Shown piece by piece: positions 48,107-56,806 of a stretch of 57,797 bases of DNA. Position 1 is the first letter of the stretch. Each line of letters opens with the position of its first letter. A program made the position numbers and the translations under genes. Under the pieces are notes generated by a model. It saw nothing but the letters and a program-made list of their open reading frames with translations. It had not been told where the DNA came from and ran no database searches. The DNA lies in contig NZ_NCSM01000088.1 in the NCBI RefSeq assembly GCF_002224125.1, forward strand, positions 1 through 57,797, read 5' to 3'. Source of the DNA: Streptomyces sp. NBS 14/10. Lineage in GTDB: Bacteria; Actinomycetota; Actinomycetes; Streptomycetales; Streptomycetaceae.

Positions 48107-48150
48107 GCGCTCGACAGGATTCGAACCTGCAACCTCTTGACCCGTAGGTT
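48107..48150 (-). pseudogene. 3' half of tRNA-Arg(ACG), likely attachment-site copy (B)
   Basis: The minus strand reads from the anticodon loop (CTACGGG) through the 3' anticodon stem TCAAG, the variable loop AGGTT and the T-arm GCAGGTTCGAATCCTGT to the acceptor end CGAGCGC. The 5' half is missing: upstream of the loop the sequence becomes GAAC instead of the complement CTTGA. Such 3' tRNA halves are made by integration of tyrosine-recombinase elements. Copy B has a G where copy C has A after ACG. Confidence 0.75.
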
Positions 48151-51824: not shown

Positions 51825-51998
51825 CACCCGGGGCGGACGGCGCACCACCGTCCGCCCCGGACCCGCCGGCTGCGCTTGCCCCTTGACGACGTCGACCTCC
51901 CAGGGCTCCTTGCCGGGGCAGTGGACCCAGACCTTGTCCTGATCGCGGCCATTCGATGCAAGGTTGTGCGCTGGATCGAAAAACGTCAATATAGAAGC

Positions 51999-52403
51999 AT
52001 GTCGAAACAAGCGCTTGTGGTGCTCGGTGAAGATGGCGTTGACGAGTGCTGCCCAGGACTGCTGACCGCCCCGCTGGACGAAGCGCAGTCCGTCGAACTG
52101 GCGAAGGTGTTCAAGGCACTGGGTGATCCGGTCCGCCTACGTCTGCTGTCGATGATCGCCTCTCGGGCGGGAGGTGAGGTGTGCGTATGCGACCTGACCC
52201 CCGCCTTCGACCTGTCGCAGCCGACGATCTCGCATCACCTGAAACTGCTTCGGCAGGCCGGGCTGATCGACTGCGAGCGTCGCGGCACGTGGGTTTACTA
52301 CTGGCTGCTGCCGGAGATGACGGACCGGCTTTCCGGGATCCTCACCCGCCCCGCCGGTCAGCCGCTGCCGGAGCATACGGGGACCCCGGGAGACGCCTCA
52401 TGA
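51999..52403 (+). CDS. arsR: ArsR/SmtB-family repressor
   Basis: The 134-residue repressor starts at ATG 51999. Winged-helix: KVFKALGDPVRLRLLSMIAS, CVCDLTPAFDLSQPTISHHL (recognition helix, with the CVCD pair that binds As(III) or Sb(III)) and LLRQAGLIDCERRGTWVYYW. An extra Cys pair, DECCPGLL, lies near residue 16, which may add to metalloid binding. Its TGA overlaps the acr3 start (ATGA), so it is the first gene of the arsRBC operon and should repress its own promoter in the absence of arsenite. Confidence 0.92.
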   Translation: MSKQALVVLGEDGVDECCPGLLTAPLDEAQSVELAKVFKALGDPVRLRLLSMIASRAGGEVCVCDLTPAFDLSQPTISHHLKLLRQAGLIDCERRGTWVYYWLLPEMTDRLSGILTRPAGQPLPEHTGTPGDAS

Positions 52404-53512
52404 CTGCCGAGCCCTCAACCACACCGGTCGCCGCGCGACTGTCGTTCGTCGATCGCTTCCTCGCGGTGTGGATCCTGCTCGCGATGGCCGCCGGCCTGGG
52501 CCTGGGGCGGCTCGTTCCCGGCCTGGGCGATGCCCTGGCGAAGGTGACCGTCACCGGTGTCTCCCTGCCGATCGCGCTCGGCCTGCTGGTGATGATGTAC
52601 CCCGTGCTGGCCAAGGTCCGTTATGACCGCCTCGACACGGTCACCCGGGACCAGCGTCTGCTGATCCCCTCGCTCGTGCTGAACTGGGTCCTCGGCCCGA
52701 TGATCATGTTCGCGCTCGCCTGGCTGCTCCTGCCGGACCTGCCGGAGTACCGGACGGGCCTGATCATCGTCGGCCTGGCCCGTTGCATCGCGATGGTCAT
52801 CATCTGGAACGACCTGGCCTGCGGCGACCGCGAAGCCGCTGCCGTCCTCGTCGCCCTCAACTCCGTCTTCCAGGTGATCGCCTTCTCCGCACTCGGCTGG
52901 TTCTACCTCACGGTGCTGCCCGGCTGGCTCGGCCTGGAACAGACCGATCTTGATTTCAGCGTGTGGGAGATCGCCCGTAGCGTGCTGATCTTCCTGGGTA
53001 TCCCCCTGGTGGCAGGCTTCCTCTCTCGGCGCCTCGGCGAGAGGGCTAGGGGCCGGGAATGGTACGAGACGAAGCTCATCCCGCGCATCGGTCCCTTCGC
53101 CCTCTACGGGCTGCTGTTCACGATCGTCGTCCTGTTCGCCCTCCAAGGCGACGCGATCACCTCTCAGCCCATGGACGTGGCGCGGATCGCGGTGCCCCTG
53201 CTGGTGTACTTCGCCGTGATGTGGACCGGGTCCATGGCACTGGGCAAGGCCGTGGGCCTGGACTATTCGCGCTCGACCACGCTGGCGTTCACGGCTGCGG
53301 GCAACAACTTCGAGCTTGCCATCGCCGTCGCCGTCGCCACCTTCGGCGCCTCCTCCGGGCAAGCCCTGGCTGGAGTCGTCGGCCCGCTGATCGAGGTTCC
53401 CGTGCTGATCGGGCTCGTCTACGTAGCCCTGGCCGCCCGTCGCTACTTCTCCCAACCCACTGCCATCGCTGCCCAGAGCACACCCGCCGAGGAAGATTCC
53501 GCCCGTGTCTGA
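52400..53512 (+). CDS. acr3: Arsenite efflux permease Acr3
   Basis: The 370-residue, about 10-helix permease of the ACR3 (BART) superfamily starts at ATG 52400 (MTAEPSTTPVAARLSFVDRF). The key motif GLARCIAMVIIWNDLACGDR holds the Cys needed for As(III) transport, and FTAAGNNFELAIAVAVATFG near the end matches the second conserved helix. It extrudes arsenite with the proton gradient. It overlaps arsR (4 nt) and arsC (8 nt). Confidence 0.93.
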   Translation: MTAEPSTTPVAARLSFVDRFLAVWILLAMAAGLGLGRLVPGLGDALAKVTVTGVSLPIALGLLVMMYPVLAKVRYDRLDTVTRDQRLLIPSLVLNWVLGPMIMFALAWLLLPDLPEYRTGLIIVGLARCIAMVIIWNDLACGDREAAAVLVALNSVFQVIAFSALGWFYLTVLPGWLGLEQTDLDFSVWEIARSVLIFLGIPLVAGFLSRRLGERARGREWYETKLIPRIGPFALYGLLFTIVVLFALQGDAITSQPMDVARIAVPLLVYFAVMWTGSMALGKAVGLDYSRSTTLAFTAAGNNFELAIAVAVATFGASSGQALAGVVGPLIEVPVLIGLVYVALAARRYFSQPTAIAAQSTPAEEDSARV

Positions 53513-53930
53513 TCCCGAGAAGCCGTCCGTGTTGTTCGTCTGCGTCCACAACGCGGGCCGCTCCCAGATGGCCGCGGCTTTCCTCACCCACATCGCGGGC
53601 GACCGCATCGAAGTCCGCTCCGCCGGTTCGGCACCCGCCGAGCACGTCAACCCCGCCGTAGTGGAAGCAATGGCGGAAGTCGATGTCGACATCGCGGCAG
53701 AGATCCCGAAGGCGCTGACGGCCGAAGCCGTGCAGACGTCGGACGTGGTCATCACCATGGGCTGCGGCGATGCCTGTCCGTACTTCCCCGGCAAGACCTA
53801 CCTGGACTGGAAGCTCGATGATCCAGCCGGGCAAGGCGTCGCGGCGGTGCGGCCGATCCGGGACGAGATCCGGACCCGCGTTCAGAGCCTCGTCAGCCAA
53901 CTGACTGGCCCTGCTGATCGCCGGCAATGA
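53505..53930 (+). CDS. arsC: Arsenate reductase, low-molecular-weight phosphatase type
   Basis: The 141-residue enzyme starts at GTG 53505 (SDPEKPSVLFVCVHNAGRSQ). The CX5R loop C13-VHNAG-R19-S20 is the active site; a later Cys pair (MGCGDACP) and the DPAGQG acid loop complete the family. It reduces As(V) to As(III) for export by Acr3. The reductant in Streptomyces is probably mycothiol or thioredoxin; the sequence does not decide. Confidence 0.92.
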   Translation: MSDPEKPSVLFVCVHNAGRSQMAAAFLTHIAGDRIEVRSAGSAPAEHVNPAVVEAMAEVDVDIAAEIPKALTAEAVQTSDVVITMGCGDACPYFPGKTYLDWKLDDPAGQGVAAVRPIRDEIRTRVQSLVSQLTGPADRRQ

Positions 53931-54361: not shown

Positions 54362-54369
54362 GCTGGGGC

Positions 54370-54410
54370 GCTCGGCAGGATTCGAACCTGCAACCTCTTG
54401 ATCCGTAGGT
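54370..54410 (-). pseudogene. 3' half of tRNA-Arg(ACG), likely attachment-site copy (C)
   Basis: The minus strand reads CTACGGATCAAGAGG, then GCAGGTTCGAATCCTGC and CGAGCGC. It differs from copy B at only a few positions, and the same GAAC replaces the expected 5' stem. The flanks on both sides resemble those of copy B for roughly 150 bp. Confidence 0.78.
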
Positions 54411-54516: not shown

Positions 54517-54532
54517 AGACTGTCCCCCCTAG

Positions 54533-54561
54533 TACTCCAGCTGTAGATCGCGATCTTGCTG
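54533..54561. repeat. Left terminal inverted repeat of the transposon
   Basis: 29 bp beginning TACTCCAGCTGTAGATC. It is matched in inverted form at 56774-56802 with one mismatch. CTAG precedes it (54529-54532). Confidence 0.88.
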
Positions 54562-54609
54562 GTTGGGGCTGGTCCGGGAACAGGTGCGGCCACCGTTGAT
54601 CATCGGTGT

Positions 54610-55922
54610 GTGAAGACAGAAGATCAGTCGGTGGCCGCAGGTCACAGCATAGATCCTGGCCGCTGGCAGGAAGCGTTCGAGGTCCTGATGGGTCGTATCG
54701 CGGGACGGTTCGGTCGGGTGGAACCCCGACGCCGAGTACGGGCGTTCGTGCTGGGGCTGCTGTCGGACCTGCCGCGCAAGAACTGCTGGACGCTCGCCGA
54801 GCATGCCGGGGACGCGAGCCCGTACGGTCTGCAGCACCTGCTGTCGAGGGCCAGATGGGATGCCGACGCAGTACGCGACGACGTCCGCGGCTTCGTCGTC
54901 GAGAACCTGCACCACCAGGACGCGGTGCTGGTCGTGGACGAGACCGATGACCTGAAGAAGGGCACGCACACCGTGGGCGTGCAGCGCCAGTACACCGGCA
55001 CCGCCGGACGCATCGAGAACAGTCAGGTCGCCGTCTACCTCGCCTACTCCACCCCGCACGGGCACGCGGCGATCGACCGCGAGCTGTATGTCCCGCGTTC
55101 CTGGACCGAGGATGCGGCCCGTTGCCGGGCAGCCGGGATCCCCGACGCCGTCGGCTTCGCCACGAAACCCACCCTCGCCGCCCGCATGATCGGCCGTGCA
55201 CTGGACGCCGGTGCCCTCGTGTCCTGGGTGGCCGGCGACGAGGTCTACGGAGGTAACCCCGCTTGCGAACCGACCTGGAGAGACGCAAGATCGGCTACGT
55301 ACTCGCCGTCGCCTGCGACCACCAGATTCCCACCGGCGCGGGCAAGCTCCGCGCCGACGCCCTGGTCAAGAAGCTGCCGAAGCGGGCCTGGCAGAAACTC
55401 TCCGCCGGCGCCGGAGCCAAAGGGCACCGCCTCTACGACTGGGCCCTGGCCGACATCGCCGACGACGGACCCGGCCACCGCCAGTTGCTCGTCCGCCGCA
55501 ACCGGCGCACCCGTGAACTCGCCTTCTACCGCTGTTACTCAGCCACCCCGGTTCCGCTGTCCACCTTGGTGCGGGTCGCTGGGCGCAGATGGACGGTCGA
55601 GGAGACGTTCGAGGCCAGCAAAGGCTTGGCCGGTCTGGATGAGCACCAGGTCCGCCGTTGGACTTCCTGGCACCGTTGGGTCACCCTCGCCATGCTCGCG
55701 CACGCCTTCCTCGCCGTGACCGCAGCCGTCGAACGCCGAGACCACCCAGCGGCCGAGGACCTGATCCCCCTGAGCGGCAACGAAATCCAGCATCTGTTTG
55801 CGGCACTGATCAACCCGGTCCACGACCTCGCGCACCGACTTCGCTGGTCGCGGTGGCGACGTCGCCATCAGGCCCGCGCCCGCACCTCCCACTACCGACG
55901 ACAAGCAACCACTCAACTGTGA
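54610..55922 (+). pseudogene. IS701-family transposase (DDE), frameshifted
   Basis: The start is GTG 54610 (VKTEDQSVAAGHSIDPGRWQ). The catalytic Asp residues are seen in AVLVVDETDDLKKGTHTVGV and SWVAGDEVYGGNP, and the Glu in RWTVEETFEASKGLAGLDEH. After VYGGNP (about 55260) the frame changes by -1 at a run of four C; the rest (RLRTDLERRKIGYVLAVACD, LVRRNRRTRELAFYRCYS) runs in the new frame to the TGA at 55920-55922. A fifth C would restore one protein of about 437 residues. The shift may be a mutation, a sequencing error or a programmed -1 slip on CCCC. Confidence 0.85.
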
Positions 55923-56140
55923 CCTGCCGCAGAGTCATGAGGTGAGGGCGAGGCGCTACGGGAGTGGTGCCGTCGCGTCAGGCCACCCGGTACGATCGGT
56001 GGCGGCCTGGTGCAGCCGGCCGCTCGCGCCTCTCAGGGTTGGGTGAATGCACCGTGGGTCGCCTCGCCTCGGCTCACTGAACGCGGCACCGGCCGACAAC
56101 GCGAGCATCGGCAGGACGGGCCGCGTGGAAAGCCGACGCG

Positions 56141-56692
56141 ATGACGTCCCCTACCACTGACCACGCCAAGAAACTCGCCAGACTCCTGCGCGAGGACCTC
56201 GCCACAGCGGGAATCGAGATCCCGCACAGCCTCGCACTCGAACTGATCGCCCACCAGCTCGGCACCAAGGACTGGAACGTGCTCGCCGCCCTGACGAGCC
56301 GCGCAGGACGCCCTGCCGCACCGGACATCAGCCCAGGTGTGCCGATCCTGCGCGTCATGTCCGTCGCGCAGGCACTGCCGTTCTACCGTGACTTTCTGGG
56401 CTTCGCCCTGGACTGGGAGCACCGGTTTGAGCCCGGGATGCCGCTGTATGTGCAGGTATCGCGCTCAGCAGCCGTGCTGCACCTCTCCGAACACCACGGC
56501 GACGGCACCCCCAACAGCGTGGTCTGGATCCCGGTGCGCGATGTCTCCGCCCTGCACAAGGAATTGCTCGCCCGACCGAACGCGCCCGTTCGTCCCGGAA
56601 TCGATCTGGACGCCCCCGGAGGGCCGACACTGCAGGTCATCGACCCATACGGCAACATCCTGAGATTCGCGCAGCCGCCATCCGCACAGTAG
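56141..56692 (+). CDS. Glyoxalase-superfamily protein (VOC fold with helical N-domain)
   Basis: The 183-residue protein starts at ATG 56141. Residues about 8-50 form a helical domain (AKKLARLLREDLATAGIEIP, HSLALELIAHQLGTKDWNVL) that I recall as the Glyoxalase_8-type N-terminal unit. Residues about 65-180 are a VOC domain: PILRVMSVAQALPFYRDFLG, FALDWEHRFEPGMPLYVQVS, VLHLSEHHGD and LQVIDPYGNILRFAQP, the pattern of bleomycin-binding and glyoxalase-like proteins. It could bind a drug or an electrophile. It lies inside the inverted repeats of the IS701-type element, so it moves with it. Confidence 0.85.
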   Translation: MTSPTTDHAKKLARLLREDLATAGIEIPHSLALELIAHQLGTKDWNVLAALTSRAGRPAAPDISPGVPILRVMSVAQALPFYRDFLGFALDWEHRFEPGMPLYVQVSRSAAVLHLSEHHGDGTPNSVVWIPVRDVSALHKELLARPNAPVRPGIDLDAPGGPTLQVIDPYGNILRFAQPPSAQ

Positions 56693-56773
56693 TCGCCCCC
56701 GGCAGAGCGCGCCGCAGCACGCCGTGCGCTCTGCCGACACGATCCTTCACACGGAAATTCCGCAAAGCGACGG

Positions 56774-56802
56774 CAGCAAGATCGGGATCTACAGCTGGAG
56801 TA
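56774..56802. repeat. Right terminal inverted repeat of the transposon
   Basis: Inverse of the left repeat with one mismatch (28/29). TTAG follows it (56803-56806). Confidence 0.88.
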
Positions 56803-56806
56803 TTAG

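Follow-up and report, generated by a model that had tools for sequence, protein, structure and literature searches.

An IS701-family insertion sequence of Streptomyces with a probable PF20066/VOC passenger gene preceded by a covariation-supported leader RNA

The stretch of DNA analysed here, referred to throughout as the window, comprises 57,797 nucleotides of Streptomyces sp. NBS 14/10 (assembly GCF_002224125.1, contig NZ_NCSM01000088.1, positions 1 to 57,797 of the forward strand). Near its right end, between positions 54529 and 56806, lies a 2270-bp element of the IS701 family of insertion sequences (IS) together with its flanks, in which a frameshifted transposase gene is followed, still inside the terminal inverted repeats, by a conserved leader and by an open 183-residue gene of the VOC (glyoxalase) type. 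We read it as a passenger-carrying IS, or 'transporter IS' (tIS), with a leader RNA in front of the passenger gene whose fold is supported by covariation, and on the sequence comparisons described below we assign to this reading a probability of about 0.88. The features of the element are the following.

54529..54532: left 4-bp flank CTAG, of the YTAR target type (read from the sequence; YTAR-type flanks occur in most of the clade)
54533..54561, + strand: left terminal inverted repeat, 29 nt (repeat search; the core TACTCCAGCYGTAGATCGYGATC is conserved across the family)
54556..55719, + strand: 5' part of the frameshifted IS701 transposase gene (NF033540 match; homology extends to ~55265, the frame being lost beyond)
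55263..55922, + strand: 3' part of the frameshifted IS701 transposase gene, in another frame (NF033540 match)
55991..55996, + strand: -10-like box TACGAT of a putative promoter, adjoining the leader upstream (TAnnAT in most aligned actinobacterial relatives)
56003..56140, + strand: predicted structured leader RNA (covariation, model matches, no Rfam match)
56009-56014/56048-56053, + strand: leader helix P1 (hand-chosen structure with covariation)
56022-56028/56100-56106, + strand: leader pseudoknot (covariation)
56082-56087/56120-56125, + strand: leader helix P2 (hand-chosen structure with covariation)
56092-56096/56108-56112, + strand: leader helix P3 (hand-chosen structure with covariation)
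56127-56132, + strand: GGAAAG, likely ribosome-binding site, inside the leader stretch
56141..56692, + strand: passenger gene, 183 residues, with an N-terminal three-helix PF20066 domain and a VOC (Glyoxalase_7) domain (Pfam matches, predicted fold)
56700..56736, + strand: terminator-like hairpin 3' of the gene, with 16-nt arms (inverted-repeat search)
56774..56802, - strand: right terminal inverted repeat, 29 nt (repeat search)
56803..56806: right 4-bp flank TTAG (read from the sequence)

The 29-bp terminal inverted repeats and the flanks CTAG and TTAG given in the initial annotation are borne out: the repeats agree at 28 of 29 positions and, with the flanks included (54529-54561 and 56774-56806), form a 33-nt repeat at 94%. 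The same annotation had taken the near-identity of the ends as a sign of recent insertion, a conclusion that does not hold because the repeat core is conserved family-wide. Both of the genes it had placed between the repeats, a DDE transposase and a 183-residue VOC gene, are present, the latter with its open reading frame (ORF) uninterrupted; the transposase, however, is broken by a frameshift. Alignment with the copy in a second genome, G141, locates one missing base near 55262-55275, which leaves two ORFs; against NF033540 (cut-off 150) the 5' piece scores 260.3 bits (residues 42-239, model positions 2-199) and the 3' piece 151 bits (model positions 198-362). Judged by its sequence, the passenger is a complete expression unit, with a promoter-like box, a leader of ~140 nt, an ORF and a terminator-like hairpin.

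Evidence on joint movement comes from the other copies of the element. The full element was searched against a same-genus set of 392 genomes (391 besides the window's own) and was found in two of them, the window's own (G000) and G141, whose copy is 94% identical over the element, has TTAG/TTAG flanks and lies in unrelated surroundings. A third full copy, with 95% identity, is present in Streptomyces sp. AC550_RSS872 (NZ_JAGMUL010000098.1; locus L152), and a partial fourth copy, interrupted by a contig end, in Streptomyces sp. 8K308 (NZ_SMKC01000512.1). Among the three full copies no similarity could be detected in the 1 kb of flank on either side. In the 392 genomes the cargo DNA (55930-56770) is matched over its whole length only in G000 and G141, both times inside the element; any match at E <= 1e-3 occurs in 91 genomes, and the others listed cover at most 174 of its 841 bp. 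Since the full unit recurs at sites with unrelated flanks, these comparisons indicate that transposase, VOC gene and both ends travel together as a unit. The proposal of the initial annotation, that the VOC gene is a passenger within a single IS and not part of a composite transposon, is therefore upheld, the copies with both genes between the same repeats that it had suggested looking for being found in G141 and L152 and in part in Streptomyces sp. 8K308. Relatives that end right after the transposase, which it had named as grounds for giving up a passenger, do exist (L058 and L059, 1415 bp, ~88%, CTAG/CTAG) and leave the proposal standing, being cargo-free relatives.

The window element is also one member of a clade in which cargo is the rule. 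The clade was sampled as 80 loci around the top transposase matches (G141 included) plus the window; both ends could be paired in 60 of these 81, the other 21 being dropped on account of contig ends, of lost or diverged ends, or of ends too far apart, and wherever several ends were possible the pairing favoured matching flanks. It can be seen that 56 of the 60 paired elements contain ~0.5-1.5 kb of extra DNA and that only 4 are compact, so that in the sampled clade the general statement fails that a transposase is all an IS701 element normally contains. The cargo is on the left in 46 elements, on the right in 9 and on both sides in 1, and an open transposase of at least 425 residues is retained in 35 of the 56. 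Identical 4-bp flanks were found in 41 of the 60 pairs (38 of the 56 with cargo), as compared to 20.2 +/- 2.7 with shuffled partners (maximum 30, 2000 permutations); for the 55 elements with a single candidate per side the corresponding values are 38 and 18.7 +/- 2.6 (maximum 30, 2000 shuffles). By DNA similarity the cargo forms 25 clusters, with a Pfam match over the cut-off in 17, none in 7, and L134 outside the test. The largest cluster, PemK-like, has 19 elements, with such a match in 1 of the 2 members tested; the others over the cut-off are four GNAT clusters, Glyoxalase_6, Glyoxalase_7/8 (the window element), TetR with a glyoxalase, SMI1/KNR4, pentapeptide, mycothiol transferase, MDMPI_N, chloramphenicol-phosphotransferase-like, NUDIX, LysE, PNPOx, and HxlR with DoxX. 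Identical or nearly identical copies within one genome are seen in G091 (three copies of 1942 bp, 100% identical, with flanks CTAG, TTAG and CTAA), in G108 (two identical copies), in G290 (five copies in two size classes, each more than 99% alike) and in G025 (three identical 2065-bp copies). By this comparison, sister elements that carry other passengers have increased in number as whole, identical units within single genomes.

Some individual loci deserve a separate mention. G025 contains a further, fourth copy of its 2065-bp element (L141, G025:C1:3380610-3384341) with an insertion of ~1.67 kb in the cargo. In L116 (G196:C8) a member of the PemK-like cluster on the left is combined with a PNPOx gene on the right, with TTAG/TTAG flanks. 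Related 197-residue cargo genes are in opposite orientation in L073/L074 and in L087 (without a Pfam match in L073 and L087), which suggests either independent capture or inversion. At G193:C1:10161619-10161666 (L146) two repeats stand back to back, 2 nt apart and facing outward, with no transposase match in the surrounding 4.4 kb. Finally, at an IS701 match in a plasmid of Streptomyces sp. 604F (NZ_CP026489.1, 174280-175649) a protein of the aminoglycoside phosphotransferase family is annotated as well, possibly another passenger.

The passenger protein itself matches PF19581 (Glyoxalase_7) with 120.3 bits (gathering score 23.6) and, in its N-terminal part, PF20066 (Glyoxalase_8) with 52.1 bits (gathering score 23.7), the latter match covering only the first 56 of 143 model positions. 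This N-terminal part is predicted with good confidence as three helices. The C-terminal domain resembles ZbmA (5cj3, E 1.9e-5), and the likeness to BLMA and ZbmA, which are bleomycin-type binding proteins, lies in the sequence of that domain; the passenger differs from them in its extra N-terminal domain and in scoring far below the family cut-offs (28.7 bits versus 140 for the BLMA bleomycin-binding family, 20.6 versus 280 for a second bleomycin-type family). With scores below those of the bleomycin families, we keep a plain glyoxalase or drug-resistance function as a possibility and do not adopt it, and the selectable drug or electrophile protection put forward in the initial annotation is likewise only possible.

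A stretch of ~140 nt in front of the VOC start codon, on which the initial annotation is silent, is shared with little change by relatives from several actinobacterial genera, and between G000 and G141 the intergenic stretch from transposase to VOC gene has changed at 7 of 211 positions, below the level of synonymous sites (dS 0.10-0.15). A structure with a pseudoknot was chosen by hand, in place of the default RNAalifold structure, and counted on 15 aligned sequences; from the same 15 sequences a covariance model, R1, was built without the pseudoknot and then used for searches. At E <= 0.01, R1 has a match in 55 of the 61 sources chosen, a count that includes its own 15 sequences; many Hyphomicrobiales and one Rhodanobacteraceae are among the 55. 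In the alignment of these 55, the pseudoknot, which is absent from R1, is paired in 96.7% of 336 cells, as compared to 16-47% with slid partners, and shows changes on both sides at 5 of its 7 pairs. The full structure is paired in 93.8% of 1317 cells versus 26-38% with slid partners, with both-side changes at 23 of 27 pairs; since its nested helices were fitted, they count for less than the pseudoknot. Just upstream of the leader is a TAnnAT-like box, accompanied by TTGAC in several proteobacterial relatives. In searches of Rfam 15 the one match at E <= 10 for the stretch of the window searched was to a snoRNA, at chance level (E 9.3) and beyond the leader; two Hyphomicrobiales leaders gave no match at E <= 1, and 8 loci gave, at the gathering score, only a TPP element elsewhere. 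From the covariation, the leader is a pseudoknotted RNA, and in having no match in Rfam 15 it is a candidate for a new regulatory RNA family.

The distribution of the leader follows one domain of the passenger. When named genomes were searched for relatives of the VOC protein, 375 were found, and the best 80 were taken as loci, the transposase being looked for in 18 of them. The presence of the N-terminal domain was called from the residue at which similarity to the VOC protein starts, which places 63 loci with the domain and 17, starting at residue 38 or later, without it. The leader (R1, E <= 0.05) precedes 58 of the 63 genes with the domain, or 45 of 50 when 13 model sequences are set aside, and none of the 17 without it, of which 15 are readable (L174 and L175 end at a contig edge just before the gene); as the loci are related by descent, these counts are not independent. 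The exceptions among the 63 are L153, L171, L173, L196 and L211, with L171 showing a weak match (E 0.21) and the core pattern. When 17 whole genomes were searched, with 150 first-look candidates scored in each, 15 gave matches, and all 17 matches at E <= 0.1 lie before genes with the same N-terminal domain. Two of these are beyond the starting locus: one precedes a full-length PF20066 protein in Mesorhizobium, the other, a partial match, a second VOC gene in Cellulomonas whose N-terminal domain was read by eye.

The converse search started from PF20066, which in 121 Hyphomicrobiales genomes gave 38 matches in 33 genomes, 29 of them taken as new loci. R1 (E <= 0.01) places the leader before 22 of the 29, and 27 have it when the core pattern is added. 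As first written this pattern was too strict (14 of 29); relaxed, it found 26 of 29 and, over 96,564 bases with both strands counted, also matched 20 times at other places. In L291 and L293 the pattern match listed first is due to chance and the real one is beside it, while L277 was counted from the model search and the first pattern. PF20066 is matched over its whole length at 19 of the 29 loci, 17 of which have the leader; 18 of the 19 read in one frame, and these 18 contain no domain besides PF20066. Because the leader is present with the N-terminal domain and absent from the VOC loci that lack it, on this evidence it belongs to PF20066 and not to the VOC domain, and it probably regulates the genes of that domain.

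These results can be put together as follows. The DDE transposase would act on the outer inverted repeats of ~29 bp, and everything between them would move into YTAR sites as a unit. As P2 ends directly next to the ribosome-binding site, the leader would probably act on translation, and since it goes with the N-terminal domain and not with VOC, the trigger is likely to be either that domain or a small molecule connected with genes of this class. Autoregulatory leader RNAs are known, for example, for ribosomal proteins, and the likeness to them lies in a pseudoknotted leader placed before genes that share one domain; here the protein is not ribosomal, the leader has no Rfam counterpart, and binding is putative. 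Along these lines we propose, tentatively and as a possibility we would back at rather less than even odds, that the three-helix PF20066 domain is an RNA-binding regulator of its own pseudoknotted leader, that the two form an undescribed pair conserved from Actinomycetota to Pseudomonadota, and that in Streptomyces this pair, along with its VOC effector, was taken up by an IS701 element, whereby a self-regulating cassette now spreads within a clade that captures small genes by means of a decayed neighbour's end. A leader with covariation, tied to one domain across two phyla, makes the function of PF20066 ('Glyoxalase_8' by name only), and the signal behind the VOC genes linked to it, directly testable.

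The alternative that fares best is that the leader is a riboswitch which binds a metabolite, and is not what the N-terminal domain of the encoded protein recognises. A compact pseudoknotted fold that adjoins the ribosome-binding site and is conserved in both Actinomycetota and Pseudomonadota is what one might see in a riboswitch; on the other hand, riboswitches usually serve several gene families, whereas every match in the 17 genomes precedes a gene with one and the same N-terminal domain. We rate a riboswitch as about as likely as autoregulation by PF20066, and just short of an even chance.

A different question is how an IS of this kind gains its cargo, and here the sister elements are informative. 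In L060 and L061, 127 bp of an IS left end are found at the cargo side, and past the cargo the IS begins a second time, at reference position 53. In the G025 elements the last 185 bp at the cargo side are an inverted match, at 82%, to the right end of the same element. L114 consists of a whole IS with its inner right repeat, followed by a GNAT gene and then by an outer repeat, and it is the flank of the outer repeat that matches the left one (CTAA/CTAA), while that of the inner repeat does not. In L097 an inner left repeat is kept, and the outer flanks are one base apart. In the remaining elements with left cargo the inner boundary falls at reference positions 3 to 69. From this anatomy and these relics we infer that an outer repeat is recruited when cargo is taken up: an IS beside a gene would use, instead of its own inverted repeat, the one left beyond the gene by a decaying second IS copy, after which the inner repeat would erode. 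The spread of the inner boundaries is expected in such a model because erosion of the inner repeat is part of it. These relics also bring to mind a classical composite transposon, in which two IS701 copies flank and move the gene and the second copy is hidden, and that idea does fit the traces which L060/L061 and the G025 elements have, at their cargo end, of a second copy. We consider it improbable, as the cargo end of the window element has only a repeat of 29-33 nt, as it does in most of the 60 paired relatives, and in the same-cargo copies no IS sequence longer than ~40 bp was seen at the right end. A composite structure may be ancestral to these elements; it is not their present one.

Still less probable is that the stretch upstream of the VOC gene is not an RNA and that it matters as DNA or as coding sequence, for example as an operator or an upstream ORF. 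Its high sequence conservation in actinobacterial loci would suit such a feature, but from genus to genus its length varies by 1, 2 or more bases, so that no frame is kept, which excludes an upstream ORF, and compensatory changes occur in all five helices, including the pseudoknot that lies outside the model.

For the element as a whole, one could suppose that a piece of an IS701 element and a chromosomal VOC gene unrelated to it came by chance to lie between repeat-like sequences and were never mobilised together, with which the non-identical flanks of the window copy and the compact relatives that end directly after the transposase would agree; this is hardly credible in view of three further copies with the same gene order and outer repeat (one cut by a contig end, one flanked by TTAG/TTAG), of high-identity cargo DNA found nowhere else in the 392 genomes, and of G141, which refutes it unless a large syntenic block were shared, when its flanks in fact share nothing detectable. 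Programmed frameshifting occurs in some IS families, and a functional window transposase of that kind is equally remote, since the transposase is in one frame in L152 (455 residues) and in 35 of the 56 cargo-bearing relatives and that of G141 is broken at other places. Since the breaks differ, the two copies decayed independently, the VOC ORF remaining open in both. The window copy would now need a transposase supplied in trans for its movement, because its own is frameshifted. In the same genome there is a decayed relative of this IS (L147, G000:C60:20981-21572); the other IS matches listed there are partial, and a helper transposase is not obvious.

Several observations weigh against the interpretation of a passenger-carrying IS with a regulatory leader. 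The flanks of the window copy (CTAG and TTAG) are one base apart and so are not an exact duplication, those of L152 (TGAG and TTAG) are not a clean one either, and no empty site came to light, the right flank being without a match at E <= 1e-10 in any of the 391 genomes besides the window's own. What came first at the VOC locus is ambiguous, because the gene with downstream repeat-like sequence is also found without transposase: in L164 (Streptomyces sp. HD) together with the leader, with the VOC ORF frameshifted and homology beginning at the cargo junction, and in L153 without the leader. At L162, and at L154-L161 and L163, which are from other genera, gene and leader occur without repeat or transposase. 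The gene tree does not resolve the relative placement of L151, L153 and L164, so that L153 and L164 may be either older or decayed forms. There is no sign of host benefit, the ratio of nonsynonymous to synonymous substitution rates (dN/dS) between the two copies being 0.39 for VOC versus 0.21 for the transposase; we accordingly make no claim of strong host selection on the passenger, the former value not being below the latter. Cargo in 56 of 60 elements is not a genus-wide rate, as the sample was picked by similarity to the window transposase and 21 of its 81 loci were unpaired. As for the leader, its single-sequence fold is not unusually stable (z -1.0), and two PF20066 genes of the 29 lack it (L273 and L274, which seem to follow another gene closely). 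The search of the 17 genomes missed G690 and G693, whose VOC loci (L178 and L199) do match, so that absence at the genome level means little. Of the 296 genomes in the phylum-wide model search, in each of which 10 candidates were scored, G000 alone gave the leader, although few matches are to be expected there because PF20066 is itself rare, occurring in 2 of 198 genomes of the phylum-wide set.

In the light of what is known of other mobile elements, passenger-carrying ISs as such are not new, and the IS701 clade with passengers is a variant beyond the IS231 group. IS701 members have been described in a 2008 paper (PMC2266710) as 1400-1550 bp long with one ORF, 4-bp flanks and YACT at the ends; the window element shares the transposase family (NF033540), the 4-bp flanks and the YACT ends, whereas its 2270 bp are outside that range. 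The term tIS denotes IS members carrying passenger genes, and the available part of a review of the IS6 family reports a single such member (PMC7986276), as against 56 of 60 paired elements with 25 cargo clusters in one IS701 clade; what is shared is the passenger gene inside an IS. In keeping with the term, a gene without a role in transposition lies inside the transposase's repeats in the window, in G141 and in L152, and movement as one unit is indicated by comparison, from unrelated sites and identical multi-copy sister elements. In PMC2266710 the IS231 subgroup of IS4 is modular, its members having additional DNA, which codes for varied passengers, to the left of the transposase gene and inside the left repeat, and this modularity is stated to be unobserved in other families, no systematic search having been made. 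The likeness to IS231 and to MIC231 (a mobile insertion cassette, considered here by name only) is that of a modular IS with varied passengers; the family and the ends are different, duplications are of 4 bp versus 10-12 bp, and in the IS701 clade cargo is on either side and the transposase is kept. Mobile insertion cassettes contain no transposase between the repeats, whereas the window element has a broken one, and the repeat pairs inspected in G025, G290 and G091 all have a transposase; among the further repeats listed for 14 genomes, of which a part was inspected, cassettes without one may occur. A composite transposon has an IS copy at each end, and here the right end has a terminal repeat only. 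Among the papers listed from the open-licence literature, and in passages of PMC11092175, we found nothing on passengers in the IS701 family, and no listed paper treats this leader or PF20066; the main texts of PMC2864571 and PMC6429828 do not contain the words glyoxalase, bleomycin or lactoylglutathione. The relics in this clade offer, outside the IS231 group, a concrete way in which a plain IS might become one that carries genes, and this way can be tested.

A last observation concerns the surroundings of the element. Two copies of a tRNA 3'-end-like stretch, with 2 mismatches between them, are located at 48107-48148 and 54368-54409 of the window, and two further copies are found in contig C2 of the same genome. 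The two in the window bracket a 6.3-kb segment with ArsR, ACR3-type and ArsC-like ORFs (51876-53930; names from reading the sequences). They may be the attachment sites of an integrated island, beside which the transposon would have landed.

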